Assembly (NCBI RefSeq): GCF_009882935.1
Contig: NZ_WTVA01000015.1
Coordinates: forward strand, 877,108-941,107
Length of the DNA: 64,000 nt
Source of the DNA: Sneathiella chungangensis
Lineage (GTDB): Bacteria > Pseudomonadota > Alphaproteobacteria > Sneathiellales > Sneathiellaceae
Direction of reading: 5' to 3'
The notes below the pieces were generated by a model that had not been told where the DNA came from, ran no database searches, and worked only from the letters and a program-made list of their open reading frames with translations. Numbering within the stretch: the first letter of the stretch is position 1; each line of letters starts with the position of its first letter. A program made the position numbers and the translations under genes. Below, one piece after another: positions 31,843 to 48,767 of the stretch.

Positions 31843-31875
31843 GCGCAAAAGCTGTTTTAGGTGCGATAGCTATTC

Positions 31876-33072: not shown

Positions 33073-33146
33073 GGTATACTCTTTGGTCGTGCGCTGTTGT
33101 GTCCACTCATAGAGACAAATCAACAATATTCTATTATTCTTACAAA

Positions 33147-33884: not shown

Positions 33885-34016
33885 TAAAGCGAAAGGCCCC
33901 GGAAAACCGAGGCCATAACGCCGACTGGGAATGCCCTGTCCATTTGGCAATAATATAGAACAATGATTACAAGTAGTCAAACTTTTGTCTGGGGATACAC
34001 CTTTGGCATCAGACAT

Positions 34017-34289
34017 TTATTCCGCCGGTGCCAAACCACTTTTTGCCACTCTTACCCCCGGCCCCGCCAGATCGTCCCCGGCGACGAATAATAGTCCCCG
34101 CTCCCGGAACACCTTGGCAAACGCCTGCATGGATGCCGCATGGGGTTTTGTTTGCTCATTCTCTATCCGGGTGACTGTGGTGGCATGAACGCCTGACAAT
34201 GCGCCAAGCTCCCTTACCGTCAATTTGAGGGCGGCACGGGCCATTCTTAACTGTGCCGGAGTTATTACCATTTCATTATATGTTGACAT
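34017..34289 (-). CDS. XRE family repressor-like HTH protein
   Basis: This 90-aa protein has a classic HTH at residues 10-55 (QLRMARAALKLTVRELGALS, then GVHATTVTRIENEQTKPHA). It resembles Cro/CI-type regulators of small islands. Its own promoter would place the +1 at or next to the ATG at 34289, implying a leaderless mRNA; the ATG at 34298 falls inside the -10. It is divergent from two exported-protein genes and probably represses them and itself through the inverted repeat at 34318-34341. Confidence 0.85.
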   Translation of the reverse strand: MSTYNEMVITPAQLRMARAALKLTVRELGALSGVHATTVTRIENEQTKPHAASMQAFAKVFRERGLLFVAGDDLAGPGVRVAKSGLAPAE

Positions 34290-34311
34290 GGTACGCATAA
34301 TAATCTAGTAT
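34283..34311 (+). promoter_or_regulatory. promoter for the Tat-exported protein genes
   Basis: A perfect TTGACA (34283-34288), a 17-bp spacer and TAGTAT (34306-34311) read toward the gene at 34414. Confidence 0.7.
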
Positions 34312-34325
34312 TGCGGATATTGCAA
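34297..34325 (-). promoter_or_regulatory. divergent promoter for the XRE gene
   Basis: On the minus strand, TTGCAA (34325-34320), a 17-bp spacer and TATTAT (34302-34297) overlap the opposite promoter. Transcription would begin about at the ATG at 34289. Confidence 0.55.
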
Positions 34326-34341
34326 GCGTAGAATTGCAATA
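34318..34341. promoter_or_regulatory. perfect inverted repeat, candidate XRE operator
   Basis: TATTGCAA-N8-TTGCAATA has perfect 8-bp arms and overlaps the -35 of the XRE promoter and the start region of the rightward transcript. A further TATTGC half-site lies at 34309-34314. Confidence 0.6.
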
Positions 34342-34413
34342 AAGCGGGCCGAGAAGGTGTCCTACCACCATCCCAGCCCTGACCACAACTGAAACTGCAA
34401 AGGAGTTTCAATC

Positions 34414-35013
34414 ATGGCTAACCTGTATATAGACTCTAAATCCCCCAAGTTCGATAGGCGTTCTGCACTAAAGGGCGCGGCGGCTTTATCACTCGCTGCC
34501 GTTCCAGCTTTTGCTGATACCGACCCGTCATTGCAGCTTTGGGCCAAGTATGAGGCGCAACAATCAATCGAAATTGAGGCGCTAAACCGGCTTGAGGAAG
34601 CGGCGGCATCCTTGCCCCGTGTTGAATATAAATTCCGCTATGGCGTTGTTGACAGTCACGAGGCTTTGCAAGATGTGCGCACCGCATGGGAAAAATTCAA
34701 CTCCGCGCGGGGCATTCAAGCCGACTTGAAAACCGAATTCGCCGCCTATCACAAGGGGCTTGATAAGGTTCTGGCAGGCCGGAGGCAAGCCGAGGCACGG
34801 CTTAACATTTCCGGACTGGCGGCAACCTATGAAGCCGAAGCCGCCAAGGGCAAGGCTCTGCTGATTGAATATCTGGATACAGACCCGACCACGGCGGAAG
34901 GGCTTGCCAGACGGGTAGAGGAATTGTTTTGTCTGGGCGAGGATTTCCAGCCAAGCGAACGCTGCGCGGACCTCGTAAGCCGCCTCCCCGCTCTTGTCAG
35001 GAGGGCAGCGTAA
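34414..35013 (+). CDS. Tat-exported protein of unknown function
   Basis: This 199-aa protein has a twin-arginine signal (FDRRSALKGAAALSLAAVPA, cleavage after AFA). The mature part is charged and helical (LQLWAKYEAQQSIEIEALNRLEEAA), with a Cys pair near the end (FCLGEDFQPSERC). It would be exported folded to the periplasm. It sits in a two-gene unit with the next gene, behind a strong promoter and the divergent XRE regulator. I do not recognise the mature domain. Confidence 0.75.
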   Translation: MANLYIDSKSPKFDRRSALKGAAALSLAAVPAFADTDPSLQLWAKYEAQQSIEIEALNRLEEAAASLPRVEYKFRYGVVDSHEALQDVRTAWEKFNSARGIQADLKTEFAAYHKGLDKVLAGRRQAEARLNISGLAATYEAEAAKGKALLIEYLDTDPTTAEGLARRVEELFCLGEDFQPSERCADLVSRLPALVRRAA

Positions 35014-35363
35014 TGGACAAGCGGACATTTCTCAAAACGATAGCCGCGCTTCCTGCGGTAGCTATTCCGACCGCCGCCGTTGCTGGCGATAATGACAGGC
35101 TTATTGCGGCAATGGTCGCCGAACATGCCCGGCTTTCTGATTGGGCTGGTAGTCCCGATTGTCAAACCGATGACGATTTAACCGCCGCCATGGAAGCCGC
35201 AAACAACGCGACCGCCACATTGCACGAAATCCCCGCCGATAGTTTGGCTGGTGTTCGGGAAAAGGTCCGTTGGCTTCGCCGCCCGGAAAACTTCAATAAC
35301 GGTTGCTTGGGCGGGTGTGATGTCCTGACAAGCATCTTTGAAGATGTCGAAAGGCTGGGATAA
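35013..35363 (+). CDS. small Tat-exported protein of unknown function
   Basis: This 116-aa protein has a short Tat-like signal (MDKRTFLKTIAALPAVAIPT, with KR in place of RR) and a mature helical part with a CLGGC motif. AGGAGG is 8 bases before the ATG, whose A is the last base of the previous stop codon, so the two genes are coupled. The shared design suggests the two proteins act together in the periplasm. Confidence 0.72.
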   Translation: MDKRTFLKTIAALPAVAIPTAAVAGDNDRLIAAMVAEHARLSDWAGSPDCQTDDDLTAAMEAANNATATLHEIPADSLAGVREKVRWLRRPENFNNGCLGGCDVLTSIFEDVERLG

Positions 35364-35389
35364 CAAGTTAAACGGTTTCTCCGGGAAGG

Positions 35390-35417
35390 GGGCGAGGGCT
35401 TCGGTTCTCGCCCTTAA
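35390..35417 (+). terminator. probable terminator of the Tat-protein pair
   Basis: GGGCGAG and CTCGCCC pair around a GC-rich 10-base loop containing TTCG, 26 bp after the stop. The T tract is short (TTAATT). Confidence 0.6.
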
Positions 35418-35470
35418 TTCATTCCGTAACAATTTGCAGTATTCCAAAATGAATTTTATTTCCTTCCGTC

Positions 35471-36025
35471 CTAAACTTGCTTCCCTTTCGATTTCCTACC
35501 GCGTAATCCAATAAATCCTATTAGAGCGAGTCCAGCGCCATAAAGAGGAAGAGCGGCAGGAAGTGGAACGGCAGACAAAGAAACATCCCAGGTTCCTCTG
35601 CCTGCATAAAATGGCCCGTTACCGTTGCTTACATCCCAATAATTTTGGGTATCTGACCAAAAACCGTGTCCCTCGAGACCGGCTGTATTGAACGAGACAT
35701 AACTAAACCCTATGAGATTGCCAAGCGGGTCTGTTGTCGCATAGGCGCACGTATCTGTACAAATATCCTCAATATCTTCGTGCCACGACACATGGACAGT
35801 CCCAATAACGGCATGGCCCTCATTGATTATATCAAGGCCCGAAGTACGATATAATCGCGCTTCAGTACCAAAATCGGCCTCAGCGATGTCAAATGAAATA
35901 GAAACACGGCAAGGATCGCCATTTGGGTGTGAGCCAATACAGCTTCCCGTGCCCGTTAGGTTATAGGTAGCAGAAAAAGCCGTAATCGGCAGCATGCAGC
36001 ATAAAAATGCAAGAATCCTTATCAT
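35471..36025 (-). CDS. VPLPA-CTERM sorting-domain protein
   Basis: The 184-aa product has a signal peptide (ILAFLCCMLPITAFSA) and a beta-rich body with four Cys. The C-terminal VPLPAALPLYGAGLALIG segment plus RGRKSKGK is a VPLPA/PEP-CTERM sorting signal: proline box, membrane helix, basic end. Such proteins are processed by an exosortase and anchored or released at the surface. No exosortase gene is in the window, so processing would depend on the host. Cargo of the element. Confidence 0.8.
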   Translation of the reverse strand: MIRILAFLCCMLPITAFSATYNLTGTGSCIGSHPNGDPCRVSISFDIAEADFGTEARLYRTSGLDIINEGHAVIGTVHVSWHEDIEDICTDTCAYATTDPLGNLIGFSYVSFNTAGLEGHGFWSDTQNYWDVSNGNGPFYAGRGTWDVSLSAVPLPAALPLYGAGLALIGFIGLRGRKSKGKQV

Positions 36026-36326
36026 AATAGACCCCCTTATTAGTTGTTTTTAGGTTTATTCATGAACGGGTGTAGAGTCAATTTTACATTAATTCGTGGT
36101 TAATATTCCAGTGGATTCTATTTAATGTCTGCTCGGAGCCGATTGGACAAATCACGTGTTAATGTGAACAATGACAAACCGCCTAATTTTCAAACGGATT
36201 GGCGAAGACGAATTTTGCTGGAGACAAGCAACATCACAATAGGACAAGAATGTTTCATCCTATTCTCCCTCCATTCATGGGAGGTTGAAATTCCCAGTTA
36301 AAGCAAGTTCGTGGCTTGCGTCAAAA

Positions 36327-36431
36327 CTAGGGTAAGTTAACTTCCCGTGCCCGCCGTCTATCGAATATCTCCCGCAACATCAACGCCTCACTAATCTGGT
36401 TGTGCGCCCACTCTTTCCGCTTCTGAATTGT
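36327..36431 (-). pseudogene. remnant duplicate of the 3' end of the 129-aa phage gene
   Basis: Translating the minus strand gives QKRKEWAHNQISEALMLREI then FDRRRAREVNLP and a stop. The intact gene at 36557-36946 ends QERREWVHNQISEILLAKEL then YERRLREVTAGEIS. The match covers only the last 35 codons and lacks a start, so this is a duplicated or recombined gene tail. Confidence 0.75.
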
Positions 36432-36460
36432 GCTCCCCGGTTCTAGAAAATTTTCGCCCC

Positions 36461-36525
36461 TGCCAAGCAATAGGCCATCAGGGTGCCCAAAACGCCTAGC
36501 GCCGCTGTACGGGCTTCTCTGGCCC
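36461..36525. repeat. dispersed imperfect repeat, copy A
   Basis: It begins TGCCAAGCAA and includes CGCTGTACGGGC. A similar 65-bp sequence with about two-thirds identity by eye lies at 45326-45390 in the same orientation. The two copies flank the virion gene block. Confidence 0.5.
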
Positions 36526-36556
36526 TTTTTACCGTGCCCAAAAATTCCGGCAATTG

Positions 36557-36946
36557 TTAAGAAATTTCGCCTGCGGTCACTTCCCTTAACCGCCGCTCGT
36601 ATAATTCCTTGGCGAGTAGAATTTCGCTAATCTGGTTATGCACCCATTCCCGCCGCTCCTGTTTCGGGCTGTCATTGGCGGGCAGGTTCTCGCGCGGAAA
36701 CTGCGGCCAGTTCGCCATGATGGATTCGGTCGCGATACTCCAAGCATCATCGAAATATTCATCACTCACGCAAGGGACGGCCAGCAGGTGACGCGCCGCC
36801 TCGCAGACTTCCGACAATCTGTCACCGCTTTTGACAATCGTTTCCGGCGTCATGCCGAGAATCTTGTATGTGACCTTTATCGGGTCCGCGAACGGAACAA
36901 ATTTATTCTTGACGTCGAAGCCGTAGTTTCCATGAACTGCCGTCAT
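36557..36946 (-). CDS. hypothetical phage-type protein
   Basis: This 129-aa mostly helical protein ends QERREWVHNQISEILLAKEL and so on. Its start overlaps the end of the 1474-aa gene by 4 bp, making it the last member of the coupled minus-strand virion operon. A diverged duplicate of its 3' end lies just downstream. No family recognised. Confidence 0.7.
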   Translation of the reverse strand: MTAVHGNYGFDVKNKFVPFADPIKVTYKILGMTPETIVKSGDRLSEVCEAARHLLAVPCVSDEYFDDAWSIATESIMANWPQFPRENLPANDSPKQERREWVHNQISEILLAKELYERRLREVTAGEIS

Positions 36947-39900
36947 TGTTCCTTAATCCCTTCCATGACCCGCTTGGCGTACTCGTTCCGGGCGGCAATG
37001 ATGTTATCCAGCAGGAAGGCTTTAAGCGCCCCCGCATCATTCCAGACACCTTCTTTCAGGGCGCGGCTTTGCAGTCTGCCCTCGCCGAGATTTTCCTGCT
37101 CCTTGGCAAGCTGGCGGGTTTCTTCCAGCCCCTTCGCGTTGTAAATCTTCTTGGTCTCGGAGTTATAGGCCTGCATGATTTTATTGGCCCGCGTGAGCGG
37201 CGTATAAAGCCTGTTCGCCTTCGAATGTTCCTGCTCCCGCGCCATGTCCTCGCGGTTGCTCCTGACAAGGCTGCTGATAGTCCGCCGCGTCTCTGTGGCT
37301 TCCTTGAGCATGTCGTAGAAATCGCCGACCGCCTTTGAATGACGGGAGGGGGATTGCTGGTAAAACCGCCGCAAGACCGGGTATTGGTCCGCCCGCAAGT
37401 CCGGGGCATCGTCAAACAGCGCAGCGTCGGAAAGCATCAGGCCGTAAGCCGCCCATGTGTTGAAATATCCCCTTATCAAATGCTGCGCCTGGACAGGGGA
37501 AATCTTGTTCAATCCGGGAATGTTCCTGACGGTCTCGCCTGCGGCCCGTAATGTCTGCGACGTGCCGTTGTTCGCCCGCGCCCAAGGCTGCACGGCTTCT
37601 TGCGCCATGCCCTCGACCGGTCTGCCCGTAAAGCGGTTTTTGTTGGCGTAAACCTCGTAGGCTGGGGCAATCGCCTGCGGCAGATACTCAACGCCGAAGG
37701 TGGTTGATATGACCTCGGCAATGTTCTTGAATGTCTCCGCCGGGGTGCCTTTCTCAATGCCTTCAAGAGTCCGCTCGGCAATGGAAGAAATCGCGCCGAC
37801 CTCCCAGATTTTCGGATAGCGAAGGTGAATATATCTTTCCTCCGGCGTGGCATCTATCGGGGCATCCAGCTTGGGAACAAAGAAATGCCAATGCCCGTCT
37901 TTATCCCAGTCCTCCAAATCCTGATAAAGCGGGTTGTCCTTGTTCATCAGGTAAAGCCCCATACTGGCAAGCGCCAGCAGGCCGGTCTTGGCGGCAATGG
38001 CTGCCCGGTTGGGGTCATGCACGAATCCGCGATAGGTCCGGTCTATACCGTTCGCCGCCGCCTTCAAAAAGATAACCGTGTCATACATGAAGCCCAGCCC
38101 CTCCGCCACGTCATCAAATTTGTCGTGCAGTTCATGGCCGCGCGGCAGTCCGCCGCCCCTCATGGCGAAATCTGTAGAGACTTCCCGCGCCAGATAGGCC
38201 GCATGGCGGGGGTGTTCGCCCTGCGCCATGGCCCTGCGGTACTCGCCCAGCCGGGTAGACATTTCGAAGGCGTCGGCAATCGTCTCAAGCCCATACAACA
38301 GCTTGGCCGGGGTGTTCAGGACGTTATGGGGATTAATGCCCTTCTTGGTGTAGAACTTCTCAAGATGCTTGGCAAAGGCTTCCTCATCGACAAGGTAAGA
38401 GGAAAAGCCGCCGCCATTGGCGATAAAATCCTTGTAGTTCTGGTCATGGGTTATGCGGGATTTCATGCCCCTGATACTGTCCACAACGGGCTTGAATCCG
38501 GTGCGCGATACGATACTGCCTAGCAGGGTGTCGCGGGCAATGTTCGCAACCATAAAATCAGGGGTGAGCGTAATGCTTGCCTGCCCCAGCCGTTTCGGGA
38601 TTGAGAGAACACGGGTAATCCAGCCCCGCGCCTCCCGGTTGAGGTTGGTCAGGGAGCGCAATAGAACCGGGTCCGCGACCTCGTAAAACTCCGGCTTGCC
38701 GCCATTGAGAACCGCGACCACATTGCCGCCCCGTGGGGCCTGCCCTCTTAGCAGGAAGGTGGTGAGCGGTCCAAGCCCGGTCGAGATATCGTCAACCGTG
38801 CTTTGAACGTGAATAGGAAGTTGCGTTTTCTTGTCCGCGCCAAGAGCCTTGACGATGGCGTCCTCAACCTGTCGGCTGTCGATGTCGATAGGAATCTGCT
38901 CTTTCGGGATCTTCGCCATGAAGTGAGCGCCGCGCTTGCCCCGTGCAAGTTTGGCAACCTCTAGCCGCGCCTCGTTGGTGAGTGCCACGTCAATCAGGGT
39001 GGCCGCGTTCTGGACAACATTTCGTGCAATGTCCTGCAAGTTCTCTGTGCCGCCCGTGAGCGCCTGTATGCCCTTCCAGTTGCCTTGCGTTCCCTTGGTG
39101 GCCTTCTGGCTTCCGCCGCCGACACGATAGAAGGGGAGATAGGCCGCGCGTTTCCATAGCTGGCGCACCTTGGGGTCAATCACGCCTTTGGCCTGCGCGA
39201 AATCAAGTATCTTGTTGTTCCAGACCTGATACTCCTGAAACGCCTTCTTGAATGCCGGGGTTTCCAGCTTGAGCATGGCGTCAACTTCGTTCTTGGTGAA
39301 TAGATGCTCCCGGCCCTGCCCCATCAATTCCTTGGCCGACCGTCCTACGGCATAGGTCCAGAAATCGTCTTGCCGGTTGGCGACGGGTTCCAATATCTGC
39401 TTTAAGCCCTTGCCGGTGAAACTATGCGAACCGTCCTCTTTCACGATAGGCGCACCGATTGTCATCGCGCCTTCGGTAATTGAATGCTTGGCACGGGTCA
39501 GTCTGGCGGTTTCATATGCGCCCCGTGGGGATAGCCCGCCGGTTAGTTCCTGCTCCATTTCCTTAATGCCCTGCAGGTCGTCAATGGTGGCCTGCCGCAA
39601 TCGACCGGCAAAGTTTGAAGGTAGCCCCTTCTCTGCCTCGCCTATCTTCGAGCGGGCACGTTTCAGCGCGTCTTGGTCAAACCATGCTGTCATGTCCTTG
39701 CGGGCTTTCAGGAGCGCCGGACCATATTCCGACCGGGCGACGAAATCCTCAAACCAAGCATTGAAGCGCGGGGCCAGTTCCGCCGCCTTCTCCGGTTGCG
39801 TCATCCAAAGCCGCTGAAACTCGGCGAAGCCCTCAAAGAGTTTCGTTCTGTCATAGGAAACACCGCGCAATTCCTCCTTGAAGGTTTTGTTTCCCTTGTA

Positions 39901-41367
39901 CTGCTTGGATAGTTCGGGCACCCGGTCATCCAGCAAATGCGCGATTTCATGGGCGGCGACCTCGATGTCGTTAAACTTCCTCAAGCGGACTTCCTCAATC
40001 CCCTTGCGATAGAAGCCAAGCACCTTCGATTGTTCGGGTATGCGGCCCTCGTAAATCGGAACACCAAGCGCCTTTGAAAAATCCCTGATAATGGTTTCCC
40101 GGCGTATCGGGTCGTTTAACTCCCGGCCTCCCGCTCCGGGGGTGTCCTGCCTCATGCCGGTGTAGTTTTCGCCCGGCTCCATGTTGGCGGTGTCGGGCAA
40201 GTCATCCTGAACCTTAACATTACTTAACAGGCCTTCTTGATTGTCAGGTTTTGCTAAGTCAGGGCCTGTCTCAATGGTTTTATCTAACTGGGGAATTTCC
40301 CCAGTTGATTCTAAGTTGTCGGGATCTGAAATATTTTCCTGAATGTGAGGTTTTGTCAGGTTCTCCGGCCTTCCCGTGCCCTCGTCGAATACATCGAACG
40401 GATTAGGTTGCTGCGCCTGATTAGCGTCTCCCTCGCGCACGTACTGGTCACGAAATGATTCTTGATTGTCTGCGGGGTTGCCCTCCATGGCTTTTGCGAA
40501 CTCCGGCACGTCCTCTTTTGCCCGCGTCAGTATCTCCGCATCCGTCATGCTGTCAGGAACAAGTTTAGCGCCGCGCACGGCGTCAATAACCTTCTTTGCG
40601 AGGATTCCGCCACCCGATAGAACACCGCCCAAAACGCCTGCCCCCATGGCTGATAGAACGGTATCGCGAATGTCGAATTTCTCGCGCTGCCCATGCTCAA
40701 CCTGTAGCCCCTGGACAACAGGGTCAATTGCCGCCTCTGCCGCCACGTTGCCGACTGACGCCTTGCCGATAGTCTTGGCGGTTGCCACTACCCCTTTGCC
40801 GACGGTGCGCACGCCTGCGGGGCCTATCAGGGATTCAGGGCTTGCCGCCGTGCCTGTCAGGGTGCCCGCGCCATAGGCGAGATAATCGCCGACGCCTTCG
40901 AATTCCTCCGGACTAACAGCCGTACTTTCCTCAAAACCCTTGCGCCATTTTTTATAGTCCGCCTGCTTCTCGGCGTATTCCTTGGCGAAGCGTTCTTTCT
41001 GCTCCGGGGTCAACGCCTCATATCTGGATTGAAAGCGTTTCTGCATGGCCGGGCTCATGCGGGTGATAGGCGCATCCTCTCCCGTCATGGCTTCAAAGTC
41101 CGGGTCGAACAGTTCCGGGCGGGCCTGCTCAAAGTTATAGGTATCCTTCGGCCCTCGGTCGATGTTCGGGGTCTGCTTCAATCGTTCCAGATTGTAAGGC
41201 TCTCCCGCCGTGATATGCTGAATGACCTGCCCGGCAAGCGTTTCATCCATAAAGCCGGATTTCGCCCCGCGCACAAACAGGGAAGATTTTTCTTTCTTCC
41301 CCGCGTCGAAACGGTCAAAGGCGTTCGCTTTCTTGGGTCCGTCGAATTGGTCGAAGGCGTTACTCAT
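36943..41367 (-). CDS. 1474-aa large polyvalent protein with metallopeptidase-like motif and LPD38-like C terminus
   Basis: The N terminus carries FDxFD repeats (NAFDQFDGPKK, NAFDRFDAGKK, later NPFDVFDEG) typical of proteins ejected from podovirus-like virions. Around residue 473 there is an HExxH motif (AAHEIAHLLDD) with a downstream Glu in FEGFAEF, a gluzincin-like zinc site. The last 600 residues (LTPDFMVANIARDTLLGS, YPKIWEVGAISSIAE, MSDAALFDDAPD-like) resemble the LPD38 domain of large polyvalent proteins. It probably enters the host cell with the DNA. It is coupled to the genes on either side. Confidence 0.82.
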   Translation of the reverse strand: MSNAFDQFDGPKKANAFDRFDAGKKEKSSLFVRGAKSGFMDETLAGQVIQHITAGEPYNLERLKQTPNIDRGPKDTYNFEQARPELFDPDFEAMTGEDAPITRMSPAMQKRFQSRYEALTPEQKERFAKEYAEKQADYKKWRKGFEESTAVSPEEFEGVGDYLAYGAGTLTGTAASPESLIGPAGVRTVGKGVVATAKTIGKASVGNVAAEAAIDPVVQGLQVEHGQREKFDIRDTVLSAMGAGVLGGVLSGGGILAKKVIDAVRGAKLVPDSMTDAEILTRAKEDVPEFAKAMEGNPADNQESFRDQYVREGDANQAQQPNPFDVFDEGTGRPENLTKPHIQENISDPDNLESTGEIPQLDKTIETGPDLAKPDNQEGLLSNVKVQDDLPDTANMEPGENYTGMRQDTPGAGGRELNDPIRRETIIRDFSKALGVPIYEGRIPEQSKVLGFYRKGIEEVRLRKFNDIEVAAHEIAHLLDDRVPELSKQYKGNKTFKEELRGVSYDRTKLFEGFAEFQRLWMTQPEKAAELAPRFNAWFEDFVARSEYGPALLKARKDMTAWFDQDALKRARSKIGEAEKGLPSNFAGRLRQATIDDLQGIKEMEQELTGGLSPRGAYETARLTRAKHSITEGAMTIGAPIVKEDGSHSFTGKGLKQILEPVANRQDDFWTYAVGRSAKELMGQGREHLFTKNEVDAMLKLETPAFKKAFQEYQVWNNKILDFAQAKGVIDPKVRQLWKRAAYLPFYRVGGGSQKATKGTQGNWKGIQALTGGTENLQDIARNVVQNAATLIDVALTNEARLEVAKLARGKRGAHFMAKIPKEQIPIDIDSRQVEDAIVKALGADKKTQLPIHVQSTVDDISTGLGPLTTFLLRGQAPRGGNVVAVLNGGKPEFYEVADPVLLRSLTNLNREARGWITRVLSIPKRLGQASITLTPDFMVANIARDTLLGSIVSRTGFKPVVDSIRGMKSRITHDQNYKDFIANGGGFSSYLVDEEAFAKHLEKFYTKKGINPHNVLNTPAKLLYGLETIADAFEMSTRLGEYRRAMAQGEHPRHAAYLAREVSTDFAMRGGGLPRGHELHDKFDDVAEGLGFMYDTVIFLKAAANGIDRTYRGFVHDPNRAAIAAKTGLLALASMGLYLMNKDNPLYQDLEDWDKDGHWHFFVPKLDAPIDATPEERYIHLRYPKIWEVGAISSIAERTLEGIEKGTPAETFKNIAEVISTTFGVEYLPQAIAPAYEVYANKNRFTGRPVEGMAQEAVQPWARANNGTSQTLRAAGETVRNIPGLNKISPVQAQHLIRGYFNTWAAYGLMLSDAALFDDAPDLRADQYPVLRRFYQQSPSRHSKAVGDFYDMLKEATETRRTISSLVRSNREDMAREQEHSKANRLYTPLTRANKIMQAYNSETKKIYNAKGLEETRQLAKEQENLGEGRLQSRALKEGVWNDAGALKAFLLDNIIAARNEYAKRVMEGIKEQ

Positions 41368-42365
41368 TCACCAAGAACAGCCTTAGCCGCCCCCTTCCCA
41401 TATTTGGCGTCGAAGTCTGCCGCAAGATTGGGGTTGGCTTTCAGATAGTCGATAGCGGCCTGCGGGGCTTCGATTTTCGGCTGCTGTTTCGGATTGTGCG
41501 GACCATGTGCCCCGGCAAATAGCTGTTGGAACCGGTCAAACTCCGGGTCGTCGCCGCGTTTCTTCTTGAGCGCGTTTTTAATCTGCTTCTCAAGCACGGG
41601 GTCATAATCCTTGTTGTCAAAGCCGGTGTCTGTGCTTTTCTGCGTTCGCCTTAACAATTCAGCCGGCGTCATGCCTTCCAGCTTTTGCAGCAATATCCGG
41701 CGGTCGTTATCAATCATGAAATCGTCGCGGGCCGACGTGCTGTTTTCATCCTTGAAGCGCGGGGCGTTTGATATGGTTTCCCATTGCCCGGTTGCGGTGT
41801 TGAATTCCTGCGTCTCGATGGCGTCGCCGGTTTTTAGTTCGCGCGTCTCGGCTGGGGTCTTTGGCTTGACCACACCCGGCAAGACACGCTTGCCCGTGTT
41901 GGCGTCATACTGGTAGCCGTCCGCGCCCTTGATGATATTAGGCTTGGCGGGGGCATTGCGTATCGCCTGATTGTCGGCAAGATATTTATACCCCTGCGCC
42001 GGGGCCATTTGCGCCGCCGCTGCAATCTCCGATTCCGGGGCGTTCGGGAATAGCTTGCGAATGGGCGCGGCGTCCTGCCCGGTCGGGGTTTTGAACATAT
42101 TGGCGTAGACTTCCGCCTTTTTCTGGTCGGCGTCGTACTGTGACTTTTGCAAGGCGGCCTGCTGTTGCCGCATCTGCATCATTTGCTCTTGCTGTTGTTT
42201 CTGCTGGGCAAACTGCGCGGCCTTCTGGTCAAACAACAAGCCTCTATACATGCCGTCAGAAAGTCCGGCATATCGGTTATTCGGCACCAAAGAGGGGCCG
42301 GATGCTGACAGAAGCCCCATGCCGCCCATCAGCATCGGCATATTTGCGTCGTCGAGAAGTCCCAT
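41364..42365 (-). CDS. internal virion/DNA ejection-type protein
   Basis: The 333-aa product begins MGLLDDANMPMLMGGMGLLS, followed by a Gln-rich coiled coil (FAQQKQQQEQMMQMRQQQAA) and a tail with FDRFQQLFAG and LKANPNLAADFDAKYG. This composition is typical of small virion proteins encoded just before the giant polyvalent protein in podovirus-like prophages. It overlaps the 1474-aa gene by 4 bp. Assignment rests on composition and position, not on a recognised domain. Confidence 0.7.
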   Translation of the reverse strand: MGLLDDANMPMLMGGMGLLSASGPSLVPNNRYAGLSDGMYRGLLFDQKAAQFAQQKQQQEQMMQMRQQQAALQKSQYDADQKKAEVYANMFKTPTGQDAAPIRKLFPNAPESEIAAAAQMAPAQGYKYLADNQAIRNAPAKPNIIKGADGYQYDANTGKRVLPGVVKPKTPAETRELKTGDAIETQEFNTATGQWETISNAPRFKDENSTSARDDFMIDNDRRILLQKLEGMTPAELLRRTQKSTDTGFDNKDYDPVLEKQIKNALKKKRGDDPEFDRFQQLFAGAHGPHNPKQQPKIEAPQAAIDYLKANPNLAADFDAKYGKGAAKAVLGE

Positions 42366-42368
42366 GAC

Positions 42369-43250
42369 TTAAACCCACCCTCTTAAATCTGATTGCCGTT
42401 TCCCTAATGCCTTGCAAAGCGGCAGGCCGATTTTCATCATTGCCCGGCCAAGGGGGTTATCTTCCTCAACCGCCCGCATCCTGAATGCCATATGTTCCGC
42501 CCAGGGCTTTGCTACAGTCCACGTAAGGCGGGTGGCTAGGCGGGACCGCTGCATTACCCTGACCCAAGGCTCCGCCCACCGGTGATAACCCTCTAGCGTT
42601 CTCGCATCGAGCGTTGCGCCGAACCTTTCATCCGCTTCCCAGATATGCTTTGGCATGTATCCTTGCCGGTAAAGTTCATTGCAAATGATTTTAGGGCCTG
42701 CGCCCGGTCCTGCAGTGTCATTGCCAGACAAGCTGCCCTGCCCATCCGCAGCAATGCCTGTCGGGGCGGGTTGTGGGTCGTTCGCGCTTTGGGTAGCTGC
42801 TTGGTTGCCCGCTACGCCAGTGCCGCCCCCTATGCCCGCATCGCCGCTCATGGAAATATCCGGCACACTGTCGTTTTCATTATCACTTCCGCCGAACATG
42901 GAGAAACCCTTACCGGCCAGCGATGCTATTGTCGCCGCGAGGGTTGGCCCACCAAGAAGGCCTACCACAGTGCCCGCCGCCTGTAAGCCCTTGCCTACGT
43001 CTGCCGCATTCAGGTTACCTTGACCGGAATAAGGTTCGCTTGGCCCGCTGCTATGTGTCGCGCTTGGCGACGGGTCTGCATTCCAAGGTTTGCTGACAAC
43101 CGGCGGCGCAACCGTTGGAGTTGATACCGGCGCATTAGGAGATGGCGCATAGATATTTGGATAGCTGTTTAAAATATAGTTTGGCTGCGTATTTAACGGC
43201 GGCATATTGAGCAGGCCGTATGGCATTTCATACTGATTGAGTAAATTCAC
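42369..43250 (-). CDS. virion-associated hypothetical protein
   Basis: The 293-aa product has a Pro/Ser/Asn-rich first half, a Gly-rich hydrophobic stretch (AAGTVVGLLGGPTLAATIAS) and a conserved C-terminal module: CNELYRQGYMPKHIWEADER, then a YHRWAEPWVRVMQRS segment. This module is common in tail-end genes of alphaproteobacterial prophages. Its role is probably in the tail or ejection apparatus. It overlaps the upstream 79-aa gene by 23 bp. Confidence 0.7.
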   Translation of the reverse strand: MNLLNQYEMPYGLLNMPPLNTQPNYILNSYPNIYAPSPNAPVSTPTVAPPVVSKPWNADPSPSATHSSGPSEPYSGQGNLNAADVGKGLQAAGTVVGLLGGPTLAATIASLAGKGFSMFGGSDNENDSVPDISMSGDAGIGGGTGVAGNQAATQSANDPQPAPTGIAADGQGSLSGNDTAGPGAGPKIICNELYRQGYMPKHIWEADERFGATLDARTLEGYHRWAEPWVRVMQRSRLATRLTWTVAKPWAEHMAFRMRAVEEDNPLGRAMMKIGLPLCKALGKRQSDLRGWV

Positions 43251-43467
43251 AATGTTCCCCCGTGTGCTGAATGAATTCTTCCAGCCTCGTTTGATATTTT
43301 CTGTCCTGATATGCGCCCCTGTCGGCCAGTGCGCCCCGGTGAAGGGCCTCTAGTGACCAGTAGGGCAAGGCGCTGCGAATTCGGCTGATTGCGTCCTCCG
43401 GCGTTTCTTCGTCCTCAATAATCCGCTTGATGAATAGCGGCAAAACTCCGGCCCTGTCGTACCTCAT
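43228..43467 (-). CDS. small phage-type protein, unknown function
   Basis: The 79-aa product starts MRYDRAGVLPLFIKRIIEDE, with SALPYWSLEALHRGALADRG in the middle. Its ATG overlaps the stop of the ribbon-helix-helix gene (ATGA), so the reading frame that extends upstream to 43587 is not the true start. Small helical proteins of this sort occur between fibre and ejection genes. Confidence 0.68.
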   Translation of the reverse strand: MRYDRAGVLPLFIKRIIEDEETPEDAISRIRSALPYWSLEALHRGALADRGAYQDRKYQTRLEEFIQHTGEHCEFTQSV

Positions 43468-43625
43468 GCGGCCTGCTCCGCGTTGTCCAGGTGTTGCCGG
43501 ATTGCCTGCCGGATAAACTCTGAAAGGCTCATATCCTGCCGTGCCGCGTGGCGCTGCGCCCGCTCTGCAAGCTGCGGGGTGAAACACAAGTGCATGTGCC
43601 TGTCAAATGTCGCTTTTTCCCTCAT
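43464..43625 (-). CDS. ribbon-helix-helix (CopG/Arc-like) small protein
   Basis: A 53-aa frame reads MREKATFDRHMHLCFTPQ, then LAERAQRHAARQ and DMSLSEFIRQAIRQHLDN. The strand, then helix A and helix B with SLSEFIRxAI, is the RHH pattern. Its ATG overlaps the stop of the 107-aa gene, and its TGA overlaps the start of the 79-aa gene (both ATGA), which strongly supports it as real. It may regulate the operon or be a structural RHH protein. Confidence 0.8.
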   Translation of the reverse strand: MREKATFDRHMHLCFTPQLAERAQRHAARQDMSLSEFIRQAIRQHLDNAEQAA

Positions 43626-43945
43626 GCCTTCCTCCGGTCGATTGCGGTCTTGAGTTTCTGAAAACTCGCGCTTGCCTTCACGTCAACGCTGGCCGGGTCA
43701 ATCGGCCCGCCTTCCCTGACAAGCCCCTTGTATAGTTCAACAAGAATGGTTGCCTGCGCCTCGGTGTCGGCAAGAGCATCCTTGTCTTGTTCCTCCTGCG
43801 GCCTTTCCGGGATATCGCCCCAGCCGTTATTCCATTTCTGGCCCGCATGTGCCGGGGCCGTATCAACGGGAATTCCGCCCTCCGGCGCAGAATTGAAAAT
43901 GCCGAGATAGTTCCCGTCTTTATCTACAAAGGGTGTTGGTTTCAT
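43622..43945 (-). CDS. tail-fibre-adjacent small protein
   Basis: The 107-aa product starts MKPTPFVDKDGNYLGIFNSA and has a KWNNGWGDIPERPQEEQ segment resembling short proteins encoded after tail fibres, some of which are fibre assembly chaperones. It overlaps the fibre gene by 4 bp and the RHH gene by 4 bp. The chaperone role is inferred from position. Confidence 0.65.
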   Translation of the reverse strand: MKPTPFVDKDGNYLGIFNSAPEGGIPVDTAPAHAGQKWNNGWGDIPERPQEEQDKDALADTEAQATILVELYKGLVREGGPIDPASVDVKASASFQKLKTAIDRRKA

Positions 43946-45084
43946 TGGATGGCTGCCCTCGCTTTAATTCGAAGTTTGGCAGACGAGTCCGTCATTCCCG
44001 TTGCGCCACCAGTGCTAAAATTCAGGAGATTAAAAACGGGCGAGTTTGTATTATATCTGCCGGTAATGGTGGTGGAGGAAACTACAAGGGCCGCACCACC
44101 GTTGACGGTCGCGCTAGAGAACATATTCGGCGGGATAGGGATTATCTGCCCGCTCGTATAGCCATCCTCATTCGTTTGCATAATCAGGGAGAGGCTAAGT
44201 TCTATGTCGTCGGTCCCAAGCGCGTGATTTAGTGATATTGGGCCGCCATTCGTTACCGTCAGGTCGCCGAACGTAACCTCGTTATATCCCCCAATCTCTA
44301 CCGGCACGTCGAGGAGATTGGCGCTTGAATCCGTTCTCACCCGCTTGATTTTGCGGTAGTAAACATAGTCTGCCGGAAGATCGCCTGACGGGTCCGTCAT
44401 TGAGGTATGCAGACCGAAATCCTGCGTTCCGTCCGCCTTCGCTATCACGTAAAGGGCGTAGTCCGTGCTGTTGGCAAGAGTACCGGTTAGCATCATGCCG
44501 TTCCCGTCGCCCGCGCTCCATGCGGCGTCCGCCCGCTTTGTCATGGCTGCAACGGTTATATTCACCGCGTTTGTGCTGTCCCTGACATATCCTGCGGTAA
44601 TGTCGAGATCGTGTTCGTCGTCTGTCCCGGCGGTAACAACGCAGCCTGATTTAAATTCGGGCGGGTAGGGAGCATCCGCCATAGTGGCCGTCGTCCCGTT
44701 TCCCATGAGAACCTTGCCGTCTGTGGAAACGTCAAGTTCAACCGGCCTGTCCGACGCCCCGCCGATAAGTATCGCGCCTTGCGATACGTCATCCATCTTG
44801 GCGAGCGTAACGGCGGCATCGCCTATCTTGGCCGTAGTCACCGCATCCGCTGCAAGTTCGTCGGTATCAATCACGCCTGCGGCAAGGGTCAGTGTTGCGC
44901 TTGATAAATCAAGGGCGCTGTCAAAGAACGAACCGTCCTCGATGTCATTCCGCAACTGCGCAAGGTCCGCCATTAATTGCCGGGCGCTGTTGTTCACCGT
45001 GCTGGCCTTCATCCCCTCCGGGAATCCGTTCGGCGGGGCGCTGTTGTTGTTTGCCGCCGTTGTACTCCAATCGCTATATGACAT
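43942..45084 (-). CDS. phage tail fibre protein
   Basis: The 380-aa product starts MSYSDWSTTAANNNSAPPNG with the MKASTVNNSARQLMADLAQ motif that anchors many fibres to podovirus-like tails. It continues with repeated IDTDELAADAVTTAKIGDAA (collagen-free fibre repeats) and a Gly/Ser/Thr-rich beta C terminus that would contact the receptor. It heads the coupled virion operon. No tail tube, adaptor or nozzle gene accompanies it. Confidence 0.85.
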   Translation of the reverse strand: MSYSDWSTTAANNNSAPPNGFPEGMKASTVNNSARQLMADLAQLRNDIEDGSFFDSALDLSSATLTLAAGVIDTDELAADAVTTAKIGDAAVTLAKMDDVSQGAILIGGASDRPVELDVSTDGKVLMGNGTTATMADAPYPPEFKSGCVVTAGTDDEHDLDITAGYVRDSTNAVNITVAAMTKRADAAWSAGDGNGMMLTGTLANSTDYALYVIAKADGTQDFGLHTSMTDPSGDLPADYVYYRKIKRVRTDSSANLLDVPVEIGGYNEVTFGDLTVTNGGPISLNHALGTDDIELSLSLIMQTNEDGYTSGQIIPIPPNMFSSATVNGGAALVVSSTTITGRYNTNSPVFNLLNFSTGGATGMTDSSAKLRIKARAAIQ

Positions 45085-45437
45085 TTCCTGCCCCTGTATA
45101 CCCTGAACACATCATGAACATTATGGGGAGAATTAGGCACAAATACGGCGCGGAGCGGTGATTTTCACGGCGAATTTGCCAATGTATTCATAAAGTTAAA
45201 GGGAAATAGCGGGGCGGAATTACTTGTGCTTTCGGGCCTGTTATTGCGGTCGGGGAATAATCGACCGGTAACTACATGCGTTTAATTGCTGTAAAAAGCC
45301 GCTGGGGGCCGCCAATTTTCCGCGTTGCCAAGCAATTCCTTAGCAGGGGTGCCAAAAACAGGCAAAACCGCTGTACGGGCGTTTATGGGCGTATAGTCTA
45401 TTTAAGTCTACTATAGGCTTTGCTGGCAGAATGCTTG
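45085..45437. other. 353-bp non-coding region upstream of the tail fibre operon
   Basis: It presumably holds the promoter of the virion operon. It contains copy B of the dispersed repeat (45326-45390) and a short GTCTATTTAAGTCTACTATAG motif near 45398. No open gene was seen. Confidence 0.5.
45326..45390. repeat. dispersed imperfect repeat, copy B
   Basis: It begins TGCCAAGCAA and shares CGCTGTACGGGC with copy A at 36461-36525, in the same orientation. It lies about 240 bp upstream of the tail fibre start. Confidence 0.5.
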
Positions 45438-45836
45438 TCAGGTGCGCTTGAGGTTAATTCTGTCAGTTGAGCAAACCGTTGTTTCCATCTTGCCGGTAGT
45501 GGTGCCGTCCTTGTGAAACTGGATAACCCCGGATACATCGGCAGGATACTTTCGAAGCTCCGGCACCAGTTCGCCGTTCTTGTTCAGATTGCCTACAAAA
45601 CTATCGGTGATGACATGCCCGTTGTTGTTTATCGCAATATCCCCGGAAGCGTGACCGTTCGTGATAGTTGTTTCTATCTCCACATCATGGCAACTTGTCC
45701 CGGTGCCCTTCCCCATACCTCCGGACCATACACCATCATAGGCCGTGCCCGCTGCTGTGGGGATACTGGTATCGACTGGCGTTGTGTTGCAGGCTGACAG
45801 TATAAGGGCTGTAATGGCTATGCTTGTGTATCTCAT
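45438..45836 (-). CDS. small secreted lipoprotein
   Basis: The 132-aa product has a signal peptide with lipobox LSAC (Cys16), then a beta-rich domain with WSGGMGKGTGTSCHDVEIET and a Cys pair likely to form a disulfide. Prophages and satellites often carry such envelope lipoproteins, some of which block superinfecting phages; that role is inference. It is a single gene between the virion and membrane-protein genes. Confidence 0.75.
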   Translation of the reverse strand: MRYTSIAITALILSACNTTPVDTSIPTAAGTAYDGVWSGGMGKGTGTSCHDVEIETTITNGHASGDIAINNNGHVITDSFVGNLNKNGELVPELRKYPADVSGVIQFHKDGTTTGKMETTVCSTDRINLKRT

Positions 45837-45997
45837 AAAGAATCTCCTTTTCGGCGACGCTCTCCATTCAAGAATATTTTAATATATAATCAATCTTGCA
45901 GAGAAACAACCGTGCGTATAGTGCCTCGGAAAAATCCTTTTCTTGCATCCCTGCTCAATGCTAGTGAGAATGCAATCAATAAATGGCCTCAGGAAGC

Positions 45998-47011
45998 TCA
46001 TTTGCTAAATAGAACGAACATTAAGGCACCAATTGCGAGGAAAATGGACGCATACAGACAGAGAGAGATTACCAACAGTTTCTCAAGTCCTTTGAAGAGA
46101 TTATAGCGATTAATAAAAGTTCGCCCCTCACTATCACGTCCGTTTTTCGTTCTGATTTCCTCCATATGAGCTAGCGCACTCTTAATATTATCTCCAAAGG
46201 CACTGCCAATGAACATTATTCCTACGAAGGTCCATCGAAGAACTTCAAACGTCAATTCAAGCACGTCTTTGTAGGCAATCAATATAAATCGCAAAGGATT
46301 CCAATAATTGTCTAATCCTATACTTTGTCGGATACCGGATACGGATATCATAGTAAAAAGTAAAAATATCCCACTAACAATAATCCAAAATCTAGTGTTC
46401 AGTCTCTTTTCTCCGAAGCGTGAAAATAATATTAGCATTGATACCAGAAAACAAAGGCAAGGAATTAAGGAGGTTGTTTGTTGTTGAACTACATATTGTA
46501 TCCACAACAACCCCATTGCAGTTGGACCCAATATCCAGACAATCACAAAAGAAACGATATTTATTATGTGCTGGGCGACCTTCGTCGGCAAAGCGATTTC
46601 CTGCAGACTTACATCAACCTGCGCCTCGGGGTCTTCACTCGCGTCGTTTGGGAAGTTGGAAAAAATCAAGAGCCAGGGGAAAAGGAGGTTTCTTGAGTCC
46701 GAAACCCACGATACCTCGAAATCCACCTGATCAAATACTCTCAGTTTTTCGGCAAGCTGATTCACGTAAATATGTAAATAGGTATATATTCCAAGCAAAA
46801 TAAGCGGCGCGCCCGCAAAGAAGAAATCTTTGGTAACTTTTACACCGACCGCAGGAAGAGTCAGTTCGGTTTCGTCTGACGGAGAATAAGCGGTAATTAA
46901 AATGTAAATGGAGCTAACAACTAACGCAAAAACCAGATTTCGAGAGTGTTTCGACACTTCTTCTATCGAGCTAACAAGGAGTTCGAATTCTTTTGCTTCG
47001 CATATTTTCAT
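45998..47011 (-). CDS. multi-pass membrane protein, unknown function (cargo)
   Basis: This 337-aa AT-rich protein has about seven hydrophobic segments (LVFALVVSSIYILITAYS, FFFAGAPLILLGIYTYLHI, IINIVSFVIVWILGPTAMGL and others). The LTLPAVGVKVTKDFFFAGAP segment recalls membrane modules fused to or encoded with prokaryotic immune-type proteins, but I cannot confirm this. The gene stands alone with its own upstream region. Its base composition differs from the phage-type genes nearby, so it was probably acquired separately. Confidence 0.75.
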   Translation of the reverse strand: MKICEAKEFELLVSSIEEVSKHSRNLVFALVVSSIYILITAYSPSDETELTLPAVGVKVTKDFFFAGAPLILLGIYTYLHIYVNQLAEKLRVFDQVDFEVSWVSDSRNLLFPWLLIFSNFPNDASEDPEAQVDVSLQEIALPTKVAQHIINIVSFVIVWILGPTAMGLLWIQYVVQQQTTSLIPCLCFLVSMLILFSRFGEKRLNTRFWIIVSGIFLLFTMISVSGIRQSIGLDNYWNPLRFILIAYKDVLELTFEVLRWTFVGIMFIGSAFGDNIKSALAHMEEIRTKNGRDSEGRTFINRYNLFKGLEKLLVISLCLYASIFLAIGALMFVLFSK

Positions 47012-47138
47012 AAAGTCTTCTCAAAAATCTGATTTGATTTCCTTTTAACAAAGCCTGCGACCAATAAACTACATTCAACTTAGTAGAATATAGTTTAAAC
47101 ATATTCATGTATAGAAAGTTAACCGACAATTTTTATAG

Positions 47139-48560
47139 TTACCCCGCCGCCACCATCAGTTGCTTGAAGGTTTCGGTAAACCAGTTGTCTAGGCTTGGGT
47201 CATCCAAGCGCCGGTGAAGCATATCAATATCGTCCTGAGTTGGCCGAAGGTCGTCCAGTACGATATCGGCGGGTTTCGATCGCTCGATATACTCCCTGTG
47301 GGCATACCCTTCCGCCGTAGTTGAGCAGGCGAAATAGAGGTGTGCCATTGAGACATTAAACGTCCGTACGGCTTCTTCCAGATCGGCCCGAAGGCTTGCT
47401 ATGAATGGCGAGAAGATGTCTATACCAACGGCCTCTGAAATCACTTCCAGTTGACTGGCCTTCAAAACAAAAGACTGTGCCGCCCTGCGGGCGCGTTCGT
47501 TGAGCTGGTCAAAGAGATTAGGGCCTGCCTTATCCAACGCTCTATGGAATGCCGATGCTTTGATCGCCACATCTGTCACACTTGGAATGAAATGCCCGTT
47601 TTCGTCTAAATGCCCGCCATTGTACGGCTCCTGAATTATCGCGACGGGGCGGCAATAGGGAAGGTCAGAAAGACTCTCCGCCTGGACATACTTCGCGATT
47701 ATCTCCTGCCACTCAGGGAGATCGTCTTTCAAGGCATAGAGTTGATGCCCCTGACAACCGCTAATCACATATTCGCCGTGCAGCGTCTCTAATGCCTCCC
47801 CTGTTTTCTCTCCCATCAGGGTATTCAAACAAAGCCAGCCTGCCTTTACATTGACGGCCTCATCCCCCTTTATCTCCGGCCACATTTCCAGCATGTCCTT
47901 TGTCGGCCCGCTTACCTCGAATACAAGCCTTTCGCTTTGTATCAGTGCCTTGATATGCTCTAACGCCGCCTCGCCAATTTTCCATGCTTTTTCCGGGAAT
48001 GCCTCTAGGTAACTCCACCACAGGGAGCTATCATATTCATTGGCCTTGATTTTCTTCCTCTCCGCTTCGGGAAGTAGTGCAAATGCCCTTTCGGTGAAGA
48101 TATCCTGTATGGAATACCAGCCATCCAGCCGCCTTTTTTTCTGCACCTCTACGCTGTCGATCCTGTATTTTTTCGCGGCCTCCTCCGTCATCGCCAATGG
48201 CTGAAAAAGCTCGTCGTCCTTGTGAAGAAACGCCAACTCACCAAGGTTCAGATATATTTGAATTCGGTTGATCGTCGCCTGTGCCTCAAGGCAAAACGAT
48301 AGACACAATGTCGCCTCTACCTGAAATTCGGCCCCCAACGACATCCACTTGCTGTAAAACCGCACTTTCTCTGGATTGCTCCTTAAGTTACGCCTTACAA
48401 TGTCCTCGATCTCGGACTCCGTGAATGCGGGGCTTTCCTCCCTGACGGCTGAGACATAGGCCCCCATTTTCAAACGGACTATCTCCAAGGCGGACAGGTT
48501 TCCCGTCATCGCCGCCCTCAATTTACGTGCACCAGCCAAATCAATTACTCCTTCTGTCAT
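47139..48560 (-). CDS. large hypothetical protein of the satellite-type module
   Basis: The 473-aa product is soluble and mainly helical (WYSIQDIFTERAFALLPEAE, LWWSYLEAFPEKAWKIGEAA, RAAQSFVLKASQLEVISEA). No nucleotide-binding or catalytic motif is seen. It overlaps the 68-aa gene by 4 bp and is the last member of the replication-type operon that starts near 53 kb. By position it could act in packaging or helper interference, but I do not recognise it. Confidence 0.72.
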   Translation of the reverse strand: MTEGVIDLAGARKLRAAMTGNLSALEIVRLKMGAYVSAVREESPAFTESEIEDIVRRNLRSNPEKVRFYSKWMSLGAEFQVEATLCLSFCLEAQATINRIQIYLNLGELAFLHKDDELFQPLAMTEEAAKKYRIDSVEVQKKRRLDGWYSIQDIFTERAFALLPEAERKKIKANEYDSSLWWSYLEAFPEKAWKIGEAALEHIKALIQSERLVFEVSGPTKDMLEMWPEIKGDEAVNVKAGWLCLNTLMGEKTGEALETLHGEYVISGCQGHQLYALKDDLPEWQEIIAKYVQAESLSDLPYCRPVAIIQEPYNGGHLDENGHFIPSVTDVAIKASAFHRALDKAGPNLFDQLNERARRAAQSFVLKASQLEVISEAVGIDIFSPFIASLRADLEEAVRTFNVSMAHLYFACSTTAEGYAHREYIERSKPADIVLDDLRPTQDDIDMLHRRLDDPSLDNWFTETFKQLMVAAG

Positions 48561-48763: not shown

Positions 48764-48767
48764 GCTC

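Follow-up and report, generated by a model that had tools for sequence, protein, structure and literature searches.

A tRNA-Ala island of Sneathiella chungangensis with a podovirus-type ejection cassette and no recognised head genes: a possible phage satellite

Introduction

The phage-inducible chromosomal minimalist islands (PICMIs) of Vibrionaceae were found, according to the available part of their description, by an integrase, an AlpA regulator and a DUF3987/DUF5906 primase next to fis (PMC10803314). The usual satellite size limit is given as about 20 kb in the accessible part of one paper, and the satellites in the papers compared here, as far as the text at hand goes, remodel, redirect or replace the head or the packaging. 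The present analysis concerns 64,000 nt of Sneathiella chungangensis (assembly GCF_009882935.1, contig NZ_WTVA01000015.1, positions 877,108 to 941,107; hereafter the window, meaning the whole stretch), in which a bounded mobile island was found at 31362-55459 (24,043 bp, measured between the ends of its two attachment (att) copies). The island was found to contain an operon of virion-type genes, here called the ejection cassette. With a rough probability of 0.48, slightly under even odds, we read the island as one of a family of phage satellites like PICMIs and phage-inducible chromosomal islands (PICIs), carrying an ejection cassette and helped by a podovirus. The integrase, the DUF3987 gene and a weak AlpA-like gene of the island make up the gene set that was used to find PICMIs, which speaks for a satellite.

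Results

The ejection cassette

The operon at 36557-45084 on the minus strand was found to contain eight open genes without internal stops (Table 1), and the coordinates and gene set claimed in an earlier note on this DNA (fibre, fibre-adjacent, ribbon-helix-helix (RHH) and virion-type proteins) were thereby borne out. Overlaps of 4 nt were found in five neighbouring pairs, namely fibre/43622, 43622/RHH, RHH/43228, 41364/36943 and 36943/36557, where numbers are the lower gene coordinates. The RHH gene does exist at 43464-43625, smaller than the open reading frame (ORF) length first listed, and an ORF of the sister genome G019 (described below) resembles it in its C-terminal sequence and in two of its PHROG matches. 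The 79-aa gene was found to begin at an inner ATG, as in its G019 homologue; the listed 119-aa ORF begins too early.

The 333-aa protein was found to be 49% identical over 49 residues to Pam1 gp14, whose annotation reads 'DNA/protein translocase of injectosome', and homologues of it are encoded immediately upstream of LPD38 in the contigs L036 and L037. Residues 6-74 of the fibre are 49% identical to a stretch found immediately after the LPD38 gene in the podophage contigs L003 and L004. Because of these two resemblances, of the 333-aa protein to Pam1 gp14 and of the fibre N-terminus to the podophage stretch, the cassette is, as judged from its sequence, the predicted entry part of a podovirus particle. 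The 1474-aa protein was found to contain FDxFD motifs at residues 4, 16 and 323 followed by an HExxH motif at residue 473. The HExxH motif is present in 11 of the 13 homologous proteins examined, that of the window included, the exceptions being L006 (its ORF starts inside the protein) and L008, and it suggests a zinc peptidase activity. A sequence search of solved structures gave no match to the 1474-aa protein or to the fibre. The claim of three ejection-type proteins held well for the 1474-aa and 333-aa proteins and less well for the 293-aa protein, whose C-terminal domain was found to be shared with HMO-2011 gp49, a protein whose gene sits between the portal and coat genes. The 293-aa protein is 65% identical to its G019 counterpart over this domain and 39% identical to that in a third genome, G022.

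An imperfect 42-nt repeat, D2, was found just before and just after the operon, and its 13-mer core occurs exactly only at these two places within the window. As a late promoter common to the islands, D2 was set aside, since 8 matches to the core at up to 3 mismatches were found in the stretch L010 of G019 against 5.9 expected, the best with 2 mismatches.

Search for head and packaging genes

The ORFs of the island were scanned with Pfam (27 ORFs) and with PHROGs (26 distinct ORFs). No large terminase (TerL), portal, capsid or coat, scaffold or tail tube was recognised among them, nor were the TerL, portal, coat and neck genes of a podovirus prophage, which agrees with the earlier note as to capsid, portal, large terminase and tail tube. 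The Pfam matches of the 27 ORFs did not contain any P4-type morphogenesis or primase gene (sid, psu, delta and alpha), no dedicated search for these being made. The whole genome of the window (G000) was searched with phrog_2 and PF03237, by which large terminases were found on contigs C12 and C15 only and none in the island on C11.

Genes for a small-terminase-like (TerS-like) protein, a TerL and a fibre-like protein were found at the C12 locus (G000:C12:660830-663297, L024/L025), and neither portal nor coat was seen around them; the locus looks like a reduced prophage or a transfer-agent locus. A longer phage-like cluster was found in G019 (L026/L027) beside transporter genes similar to those at this locus. 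At the C15 locus (G000:C15:138010-143979, L103/L104) a recombinase-like gene, a TerL gene, a short gene for a basic protein and one of 502 aa make up a small phage-like unit, again with no portal or coat seen. Both loci were considered as a resident helper and rejected: the C12 one is a TerS-TerL-fibre-like remnant, at C15 a recombinase-like gene adjoins the TerL, and by eye the ORF lists showed no portal or coat at either.

Polyvalent proteins also occur in conjugative elements. The island might on that ground be an integrative element other than a satellite, spread by conjugative mobilisation or by generalised transduction, with the polyvalent protein acting as an effector inside the cell. 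A sub-threshold NCBIfam match of the 1474-aa protein to TIGR03779, a conjugative-transposon protein (16.4 bits versus a cut-off of 172), and the failure to find a helper would fit this. However, no relaxase or type IV secretion gene was found among the Pfam matches of the 27 ORFs, no plasmid in PLSDB matched the 1474-aa gene, and the neighbours of this gene are injectosome and fibre genes, so that an element of this kind is regarded as very improbable.

Sister islands in the genus

The earlier note had proposed a search for the same truncated set, with intact frames, at tRNA sites in other genomes. Such a set was found in G019, a sister species of the same genus, at tRNA-Leu(CAA), with an intact full-length homologue of the 1474-aa protein that is 81% identical. 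The G019 island lies on contig C33, measures about 25.04 kb and is bounded by a perfect 55-nt att repeat (66585-66639 / 91625-91679). The tRNA-proximal half that it has in common with the window island was found to contain the 416-aa gene (63% identity), the helix-turn-helix (HTH) repressor (80%) and the 1474-aa, 333-aa and 79-aa genes; the C-terminal domain of the 293-aa gene is kept too, but on the other side of the large gene. The G019 integrase is 30% identical to that of the window, the replication gene is a DnaB/TOPRIM primase-helicase, and the gene next to the integrase overlaps int by 4 nt whereas its window counterpart abuts int. A small-terminase-like gene (phrog_309, E=9.5e-17) was found in the G019 island, whereas no head gene beyond the small-terminase-like matches was found among its proteins (17 scanned with PHROGs and 6 with Pfam) and no fibre homologue by tblastn. 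The large-terminase matches of G019 sit on a contig other than that of the island. Contig C33 ends exactly at the att repeat 91625-91679 (the end of L010), which would be understandable in an assembly whose reads contained the repeat or an excised form.

A search for the 416-aa gene in 24 genomes of the genus gave three matches, in G000, G019 and G022. The genome of G022 is complete in one contig, and its 22.66-kb island, which contains no N, was found at the same tRNA-Ala (att 93031-93079 / 115687-115735) with an integrase that is 86% identical to that of the window. This island retains two genes of the operon, for the 79-aa protein (45%) and the 293-aa type (39%). No head gene was found in it (11 proteins scanned with PHROGs and 3 with Pfam), and the sole PF03237 match of the genome is 2.4 Mb distant. 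The integrase search gave matches at E<=1e-60 in 11 of the 24 genomes (the own one included), of which that of G022 alone is close and the others listed are 35-39% identical. The LPD38 gene was found in two of the 24 genomes, with both copies inside islands.

The cassette is thus variable: the 79-aa gene and the 293-aa type occur in all three islands, both large ejection genes in two and the fibre in one. The window and G022 islands have the right half in common (integrase and core genes), whereas the window and G019 islands have in common the left half with the cassette, so two different right-hand settings and two tRNA genes occur without head genes. The three islands give the picture of a family whose virion cassette is modular, and not of one deleted prophage. 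A satellite is preferred over a freshly deleted prophage because the truncated set recurs intact at another tRNA in another species, because the third island, in a complete genome, shows no head gene, and because no close full-length prophage was found in the 24 genomes. The suggestion of a tail-fibre-carrying satellite was therefore supported as to the satellite and proved too narrow as to the fibre, which does not define the family because it is present in one of three islands.

The G022 island was also found to contain a dCTP-deaminase-like gene and a BstA-like abortive-infection gene (L055:15067-15867, phrog_6287, E=5.3e-61) with a KilA-N domain. BstA-like genes are cargo of phage-related elements, which speaks for a satellite. 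Such cargo would also suit the alternative that the ejection-protein copies are weapons, which are made during infection, enter competing podovirus particles or block their assembly so as to spoil them, and protect the host without a role in transfer. Satellites do block virion assembly, and in the available part of one source the Tai systems of PICI and P4-like satellites stop tail assembly (PMC11364771). The whole coupled set, the 1474-aa protein with its HExxH motif and the fibre would, however, exceed what a dominant-negative fragment needs, and the 1474-aa protein gave no PADLOC match; a weapon is on balance rather unlikely, and the reading as a satellite with its own entry proteins is retained.

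Selection and frame integrity

The ratio of nonsynonymous to synonymous substitution rates (dN/dS) between the window and G019 was found to be 0.148 for the 1474-aa gene (dS 0.92), 0.23 for the 333-aa gene and 0.28 for the 79-aa gene, with 0.09 for the 416-aa gene and 0.12 for the HTH gene. The ejection cassette is under purifying selection between the two islands. For host genes near the tRNA, dS was 0.87 (FYDLN gene), 0.87 (ORF 29348-30700) and 0.52 (DEAD-box gene, 104 residues); two further host readings were left unused, one at 54% identity and dS 0.16 on the strand opposite that of the reading at 84% identity, probably in a wrong frame, and one from an unchanged 15-residue piece. Since the dS of the cassette is about that of the host genes, the cassette seems to date from around the time of the species split.

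In a simple nonsense-opportunity count that ignores frameshifts and assumes equal mutation rates, about 3.1 stops would be predicted for the eight window genes and 2.2 for three G019 genes at 0.01 unselected substitutions per site, against 0 observed. Frame decay across the operon and close full-length prophages had been named in the earlier note as signs of a deleted prophage; the eight genes did not contain any stop, and the nearest kin with terminase genes was a contig at 60% (L036).

Relatives outside the genus

A tblastn search with the 1474-aa protein in 50,697 phage records gave 52 records with a match, all below 60% identity and none covering 80% of the protein in one place, and a profile scan gave 14 loci. 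Four podophage contigs (L003-L006) from IMG/VR were found at 31-33% identity. Of these, L003 contained a major head protein (phrog_1328, E=2.2e-88) and a large terminase on its contig, L004 and L005 contained coat-like ORFs by eye, and L006 begins inside the LPD38 gene. The LPD38 gene in the podophage contigs was found, by eye, between ejection-type genes and a fibre-like gene. The contigs L035 and L036, both short, match the 1474-aa protein at 60% identity, and after the LPD38 gene they contain a TerS and a 452-aa TerL (in L036 with E=1.2e-39 and E=2.4e-23). The contig L037 was found to contain a fibre-like gene, two ejection genes and the LPD38 gene, as well as lysis-like genes (by eye) and a tRNA-Ala.

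The single match in GTDB contigs, at 49%, was Ottowia beijingensis (C1:3977882-3998000, L028-L029), where the cassette lies beside a tRNA-Asn, the large gene is in two ORFs and insertion sequence (IS) elements are found further on. No second att repeat and no integrase were seen in the stretch fetched, and this copy was set aside as a further island, being a damaged case or one affected by sequencing errors. In the class sample the 1474-aa protein was matched in 7 of 385 genomes (own included; best other E=1.4e-17), and in the phylum sample in 4 of 398 genomes at E<=1e-30 (own included); the frames of the other three measure 2185-3051 aa. A tree of 19 rows was built after 20 loci chosen by hand had been tried, 2 of them without a match. 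In it the islands of the window and G019 make up one clade with a Shimodaira-Hasegawa-like approximate likelihood ratio (SH-aLRT) support of 100, followed by L036, Ottowia and L037 as the nearest; the order of L036 and Ottowia is unsupported (7).

Several findings weigh against a satellite. The terminase genes of L036 lie directly after its LPD38 gene, and L037 (46% identical) contained a major head protein upstream (phrog_334, E=1.4e-91). Much of the right half is common to the window and G022, so that there are two and not three independent headless settings; the 1474-aa gene is present in 2 of the 24 genus genomes and the G022 island does without it; and the G019 island contains gaps of 10 N (75202-75211) and 100 N (C33:83552-83651), near the cassette. 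The 24 kb of the window island exceed the usual satellite limit of about 20 kb given in the accessible part of the source, and no helper, particle or packaging site was found. Scans of viral contigs with the 333-aa, 150-aa, 293-aa and 473-aa proteins, single-protein scans that reach close relatives only, gave no relatives, so there is no direct sign of encapsidated islands. The selection could also date in part from an earlier life in full phages, in which case the loss of the head genes would be very recent in both lineages.

The main rival that these points raise is a prophage remnant, in which deletion removed the packaging, head and neck genes of an L037-like ancestor and the rest is decaying, not yet visibly. 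Phage kin with head or packaging genes do exist (L037, L036), the Ottowia copy is split and followed by IS elements, and the C12 locus of G000 looks like another reduced prophage. Nevertheless, no head genes are seen in islands that differ in their right halves and lie at two tRNA genes, the frames are intact with dN/dS of 0.15-0.28 in three cassette genes and the five 4-nt couplings kept, and the nearest terminase- or head-bearing contigs are 60% and 46% identical versus 81% between the islands. A remnant would need two independent losses, both very recent, and is considered unlikely; the satellite with an ejection cassette is followed below.

Integration site, replication half and other features

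The features of the island are collected in Table 1. In the sister genome G002 the right flank of the window starts about 130 bp after the tRNA-Ala, which indicates an empty or nearly empty site, and in G019 a tRNA-Ala copy on contig C7 is followed 1.15 kb on by part of this flank. The comparison covered 22 loci outside the genome of the window, of which these two contained the right flank; it was not seen in the remaining 20, which span about 1.8-3.3 kb apiece and include other tRNA genes. Inner repeats comparable to those of the window were found in the G019 and G022 islands.

The integrase, which we take to be of the P4-like type, and the DUF3987 protein firmly support the satellite-like replication half that had been claimed, whereas the AlpA-like part of the claim is weaker (HTH_17 under the cut-off, phrog_66). 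The HTH protein at 48768-49220 was aligned by hhalign with three putative TerS rows, the alignment being restricted to the HTH; it is possibly small-terminase-like. The 473-aa core gene follows this HTH gene and was considered as a terminase for its position, and rejected with no Pfam, PHROG or phage-record match; in the 385 sampled class genomes, only the window's own copy of it was reported.

A DUF3800 protein (E=7.9e-20) was found near the tRNA end of the island at 33099-33884. The protein encoded at 35471-36025 looks secreted and ends in a PEP-CTERM-like tail (Pfam E=0.059, under the cut-off), and a 28%-identical gene was found in the G022 island. Repeated ATTTATCGCG-like words were found at 53257-53350, between the AlpA-like gene and the post-integrase gene; they are iteron- or operator-like and a candidate origin or repressor site.

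Table 1. Features of the island in the window (positions are those of the window).
Feature	Coordinates	Strand	Evidence or remark
Whole island	31362..55459	.	direct repeat pair at tRNA-Ala 3' end
tRNA-Ala(GGC), integration site	31341..31416	+	ARAGORN
att copy inside tRNA-Ala	31362..31416	+	direct repeat with 55405-55459
Inner repeat, candidate integrase arm site	31460..31487	+	28 nt, 93%, partner 55272-55299
416-aa island marker gene adjoining tRNA	31876..33126	-	in 3 of 24 genus genomes, the three islands
Repressor-like HTH_3 protein	34017..34298	-	79-80% identical in both sister islands
Last operon gene, 129 aa	36557..36946	-	4-nt overlap with 1474-aa gene
1474-aa polyvalent ejection protein	36943..41367	-	LPD38 (PF18857) E=1.7e-36; HExxH...EGFAEF motif
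333-aa ejection protein, Pam1 gp14 injectosome type	41364..42365	-	homology; 56% in G019
293-aa virion-type protein, GTG start, type in all three islands	42369..43250	-	C-terminal domain shared with HMO-2011 gp49
79-aa protein, in all three islands	43228..43467	-	68% in G019, 45% in G022
RHH protein, 53 aa	43464..43625	-	translation; weak Arc/CopG/HicB-type PHROG matches, E 4e-3 to 6e-3
Fibre-adjacent protein, 107 aa	43622..43945	-	4-nt overlaps with fibre and RHH genes
Tail fibre, 380 aa	43942..45084	-	phrog_892 E=5.5e-4; N-terminus like podophage fibres
Candidate promoter/activator element upstream of operon	45347..45388	-	repeat D2, 74%; imperfect copy 36481-36522
473-aa core gene, family unassigned	47139..48560	-	54% identical in G022
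68-aa core gene	48557..48763	-	72% identical in G022
HTH protein, 150 aa, core gene common to G022 (71%)	48768..49220	-	HTH match alone
Topoisomerase-like protein	49266..50063	-	phrog_6247 E=1.6e-35
DUF3987 replication protein, primase/helicase type	50594..52108	-	PF13148 E=2.3e-65; phrog_2373 DNA helicase E=1.4e-30
AlpA/excisionase-like HTH protein	52901..53173	-	HTH_17 E=4.5e-4, under curated cut-off; phrog_66 excisionase E=1.6e-4
Gene directly abutting integrase	53335..54087	-	ORF; G022 counterpart 38% identical
Tyrosine integrase	54088..55272	-	Arm-DNA-bind_3 6.6e-18 and Phage_integrase 1.6e-26; G022 copy 86% identical
Partner inner repeat	55272..55299	+	pairs with 31460-31487
Second att copy, repeats tRNA-Ala 3' end	55405..55459	+	direct repeat with 31362-31416

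Discussion

Under the favoured reading, the island would integrate at the tRNA gene with its own tyrosine integrase, probably excise by way of the AlpA-like factor and replicate with its own DUF3987 protein, whereas the head, portal, packaging motor and tail tube would be taken from a helper podovirus. The operon would make the parts for DNA entry, namely the ejected polyvalent protein, the injectosome protein and another virion-type protein, followed in this island by the fibre, and these parts would be built into the helper particles that carry the island DNA. The island would thereby control its own entry, that is the passage of the envelope, the action of the HExxH/LPD38 protein in the new cell and, here, the choice of receptor. 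The helper, the packaging, the incorporation into particles and the benefit at entry are all inferred.

If this is true, the entry step would also be open to takeover by satellites, ejected polyvalent proteins could be tested outside a full phage, and islands of this kind may have been missed by searches for phages and capsid-forming satellites that are based on head genes. In a literature search whose full text covered neither preprints nor most subscription journals, nothing on point was found for satellites with ejection or internal virion proteins.

Comparison with known systems

The window island resembles the PICMIs, as far as the available part of their description goes, in having an integrase with a further gene right beside it, an AlpA-type regulator and a DUF3987 primase, and in lacking head genes (PMC10803314). 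In the same text the PICMIs lie next to fis, whereas the islands here were found at tRNA-Ala or tRNA-Leu; the PICMIs have a reduced gene content, whereas the islands measure 22.7-25 kb and carry virion genes; and the PICMIs have no structural genes, whereas the window island of 24 kb contains an eight-gene virion operon. The iolg gene of PICMIs is described there as overlapping int by 4 nt, and the window gene at 53335-54087 is its counterpart by position. As to the TerS of the PICI type, G019 contained a TerS-like gene whereas the HTH gene of the window has the HTH alone in common with putative small terminases.

Podophages and podovirus prophages (Pam1, vB_ValP_FGH, BA3, L003-L006, L036 and L037) were found to contain homologous gp14-type proteins, polyvalent proteins or both, and ejection proteins of the podovirus-prophage type are present in the window. 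The marine podophage contigs contain a fibre-like gene beside the cassette, as the window does; the records of Pam1 and vB_ValP_FGH contain head genes, unlike the islands.

The Streptomyces satellites MulchRoom and MiniFlayer are, in the part of the source at hand, closest in the fibre, since MiniFlayer contains its own tail fibre like the window island (PMC10690885). Both are described there as encoding capsid, portal and terminase with no obvious replicase, whereas the islands show the reverse (PMC10690885). The capsid-forming PICIs resemble the islands in that, as presented in the accessible text, a satellite carries part of a virion gene set and depends on a helper for the rest (PMC10690885, PMC11389934). 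An own major capsid, portal and terminase, by which capsid-forming PICIs are recognised, were not found among the island ORFs scanned. According to the same accessible text, capsid-forming PICIs make heads and packaging and take tails, whereas the islands here contain the opposite half, that is the ejection genes and, once, a fibre. Tentatively, an island that supplies entry proteins to helper particles may be regarded as the mirror image of the capsid-forming PICIs.

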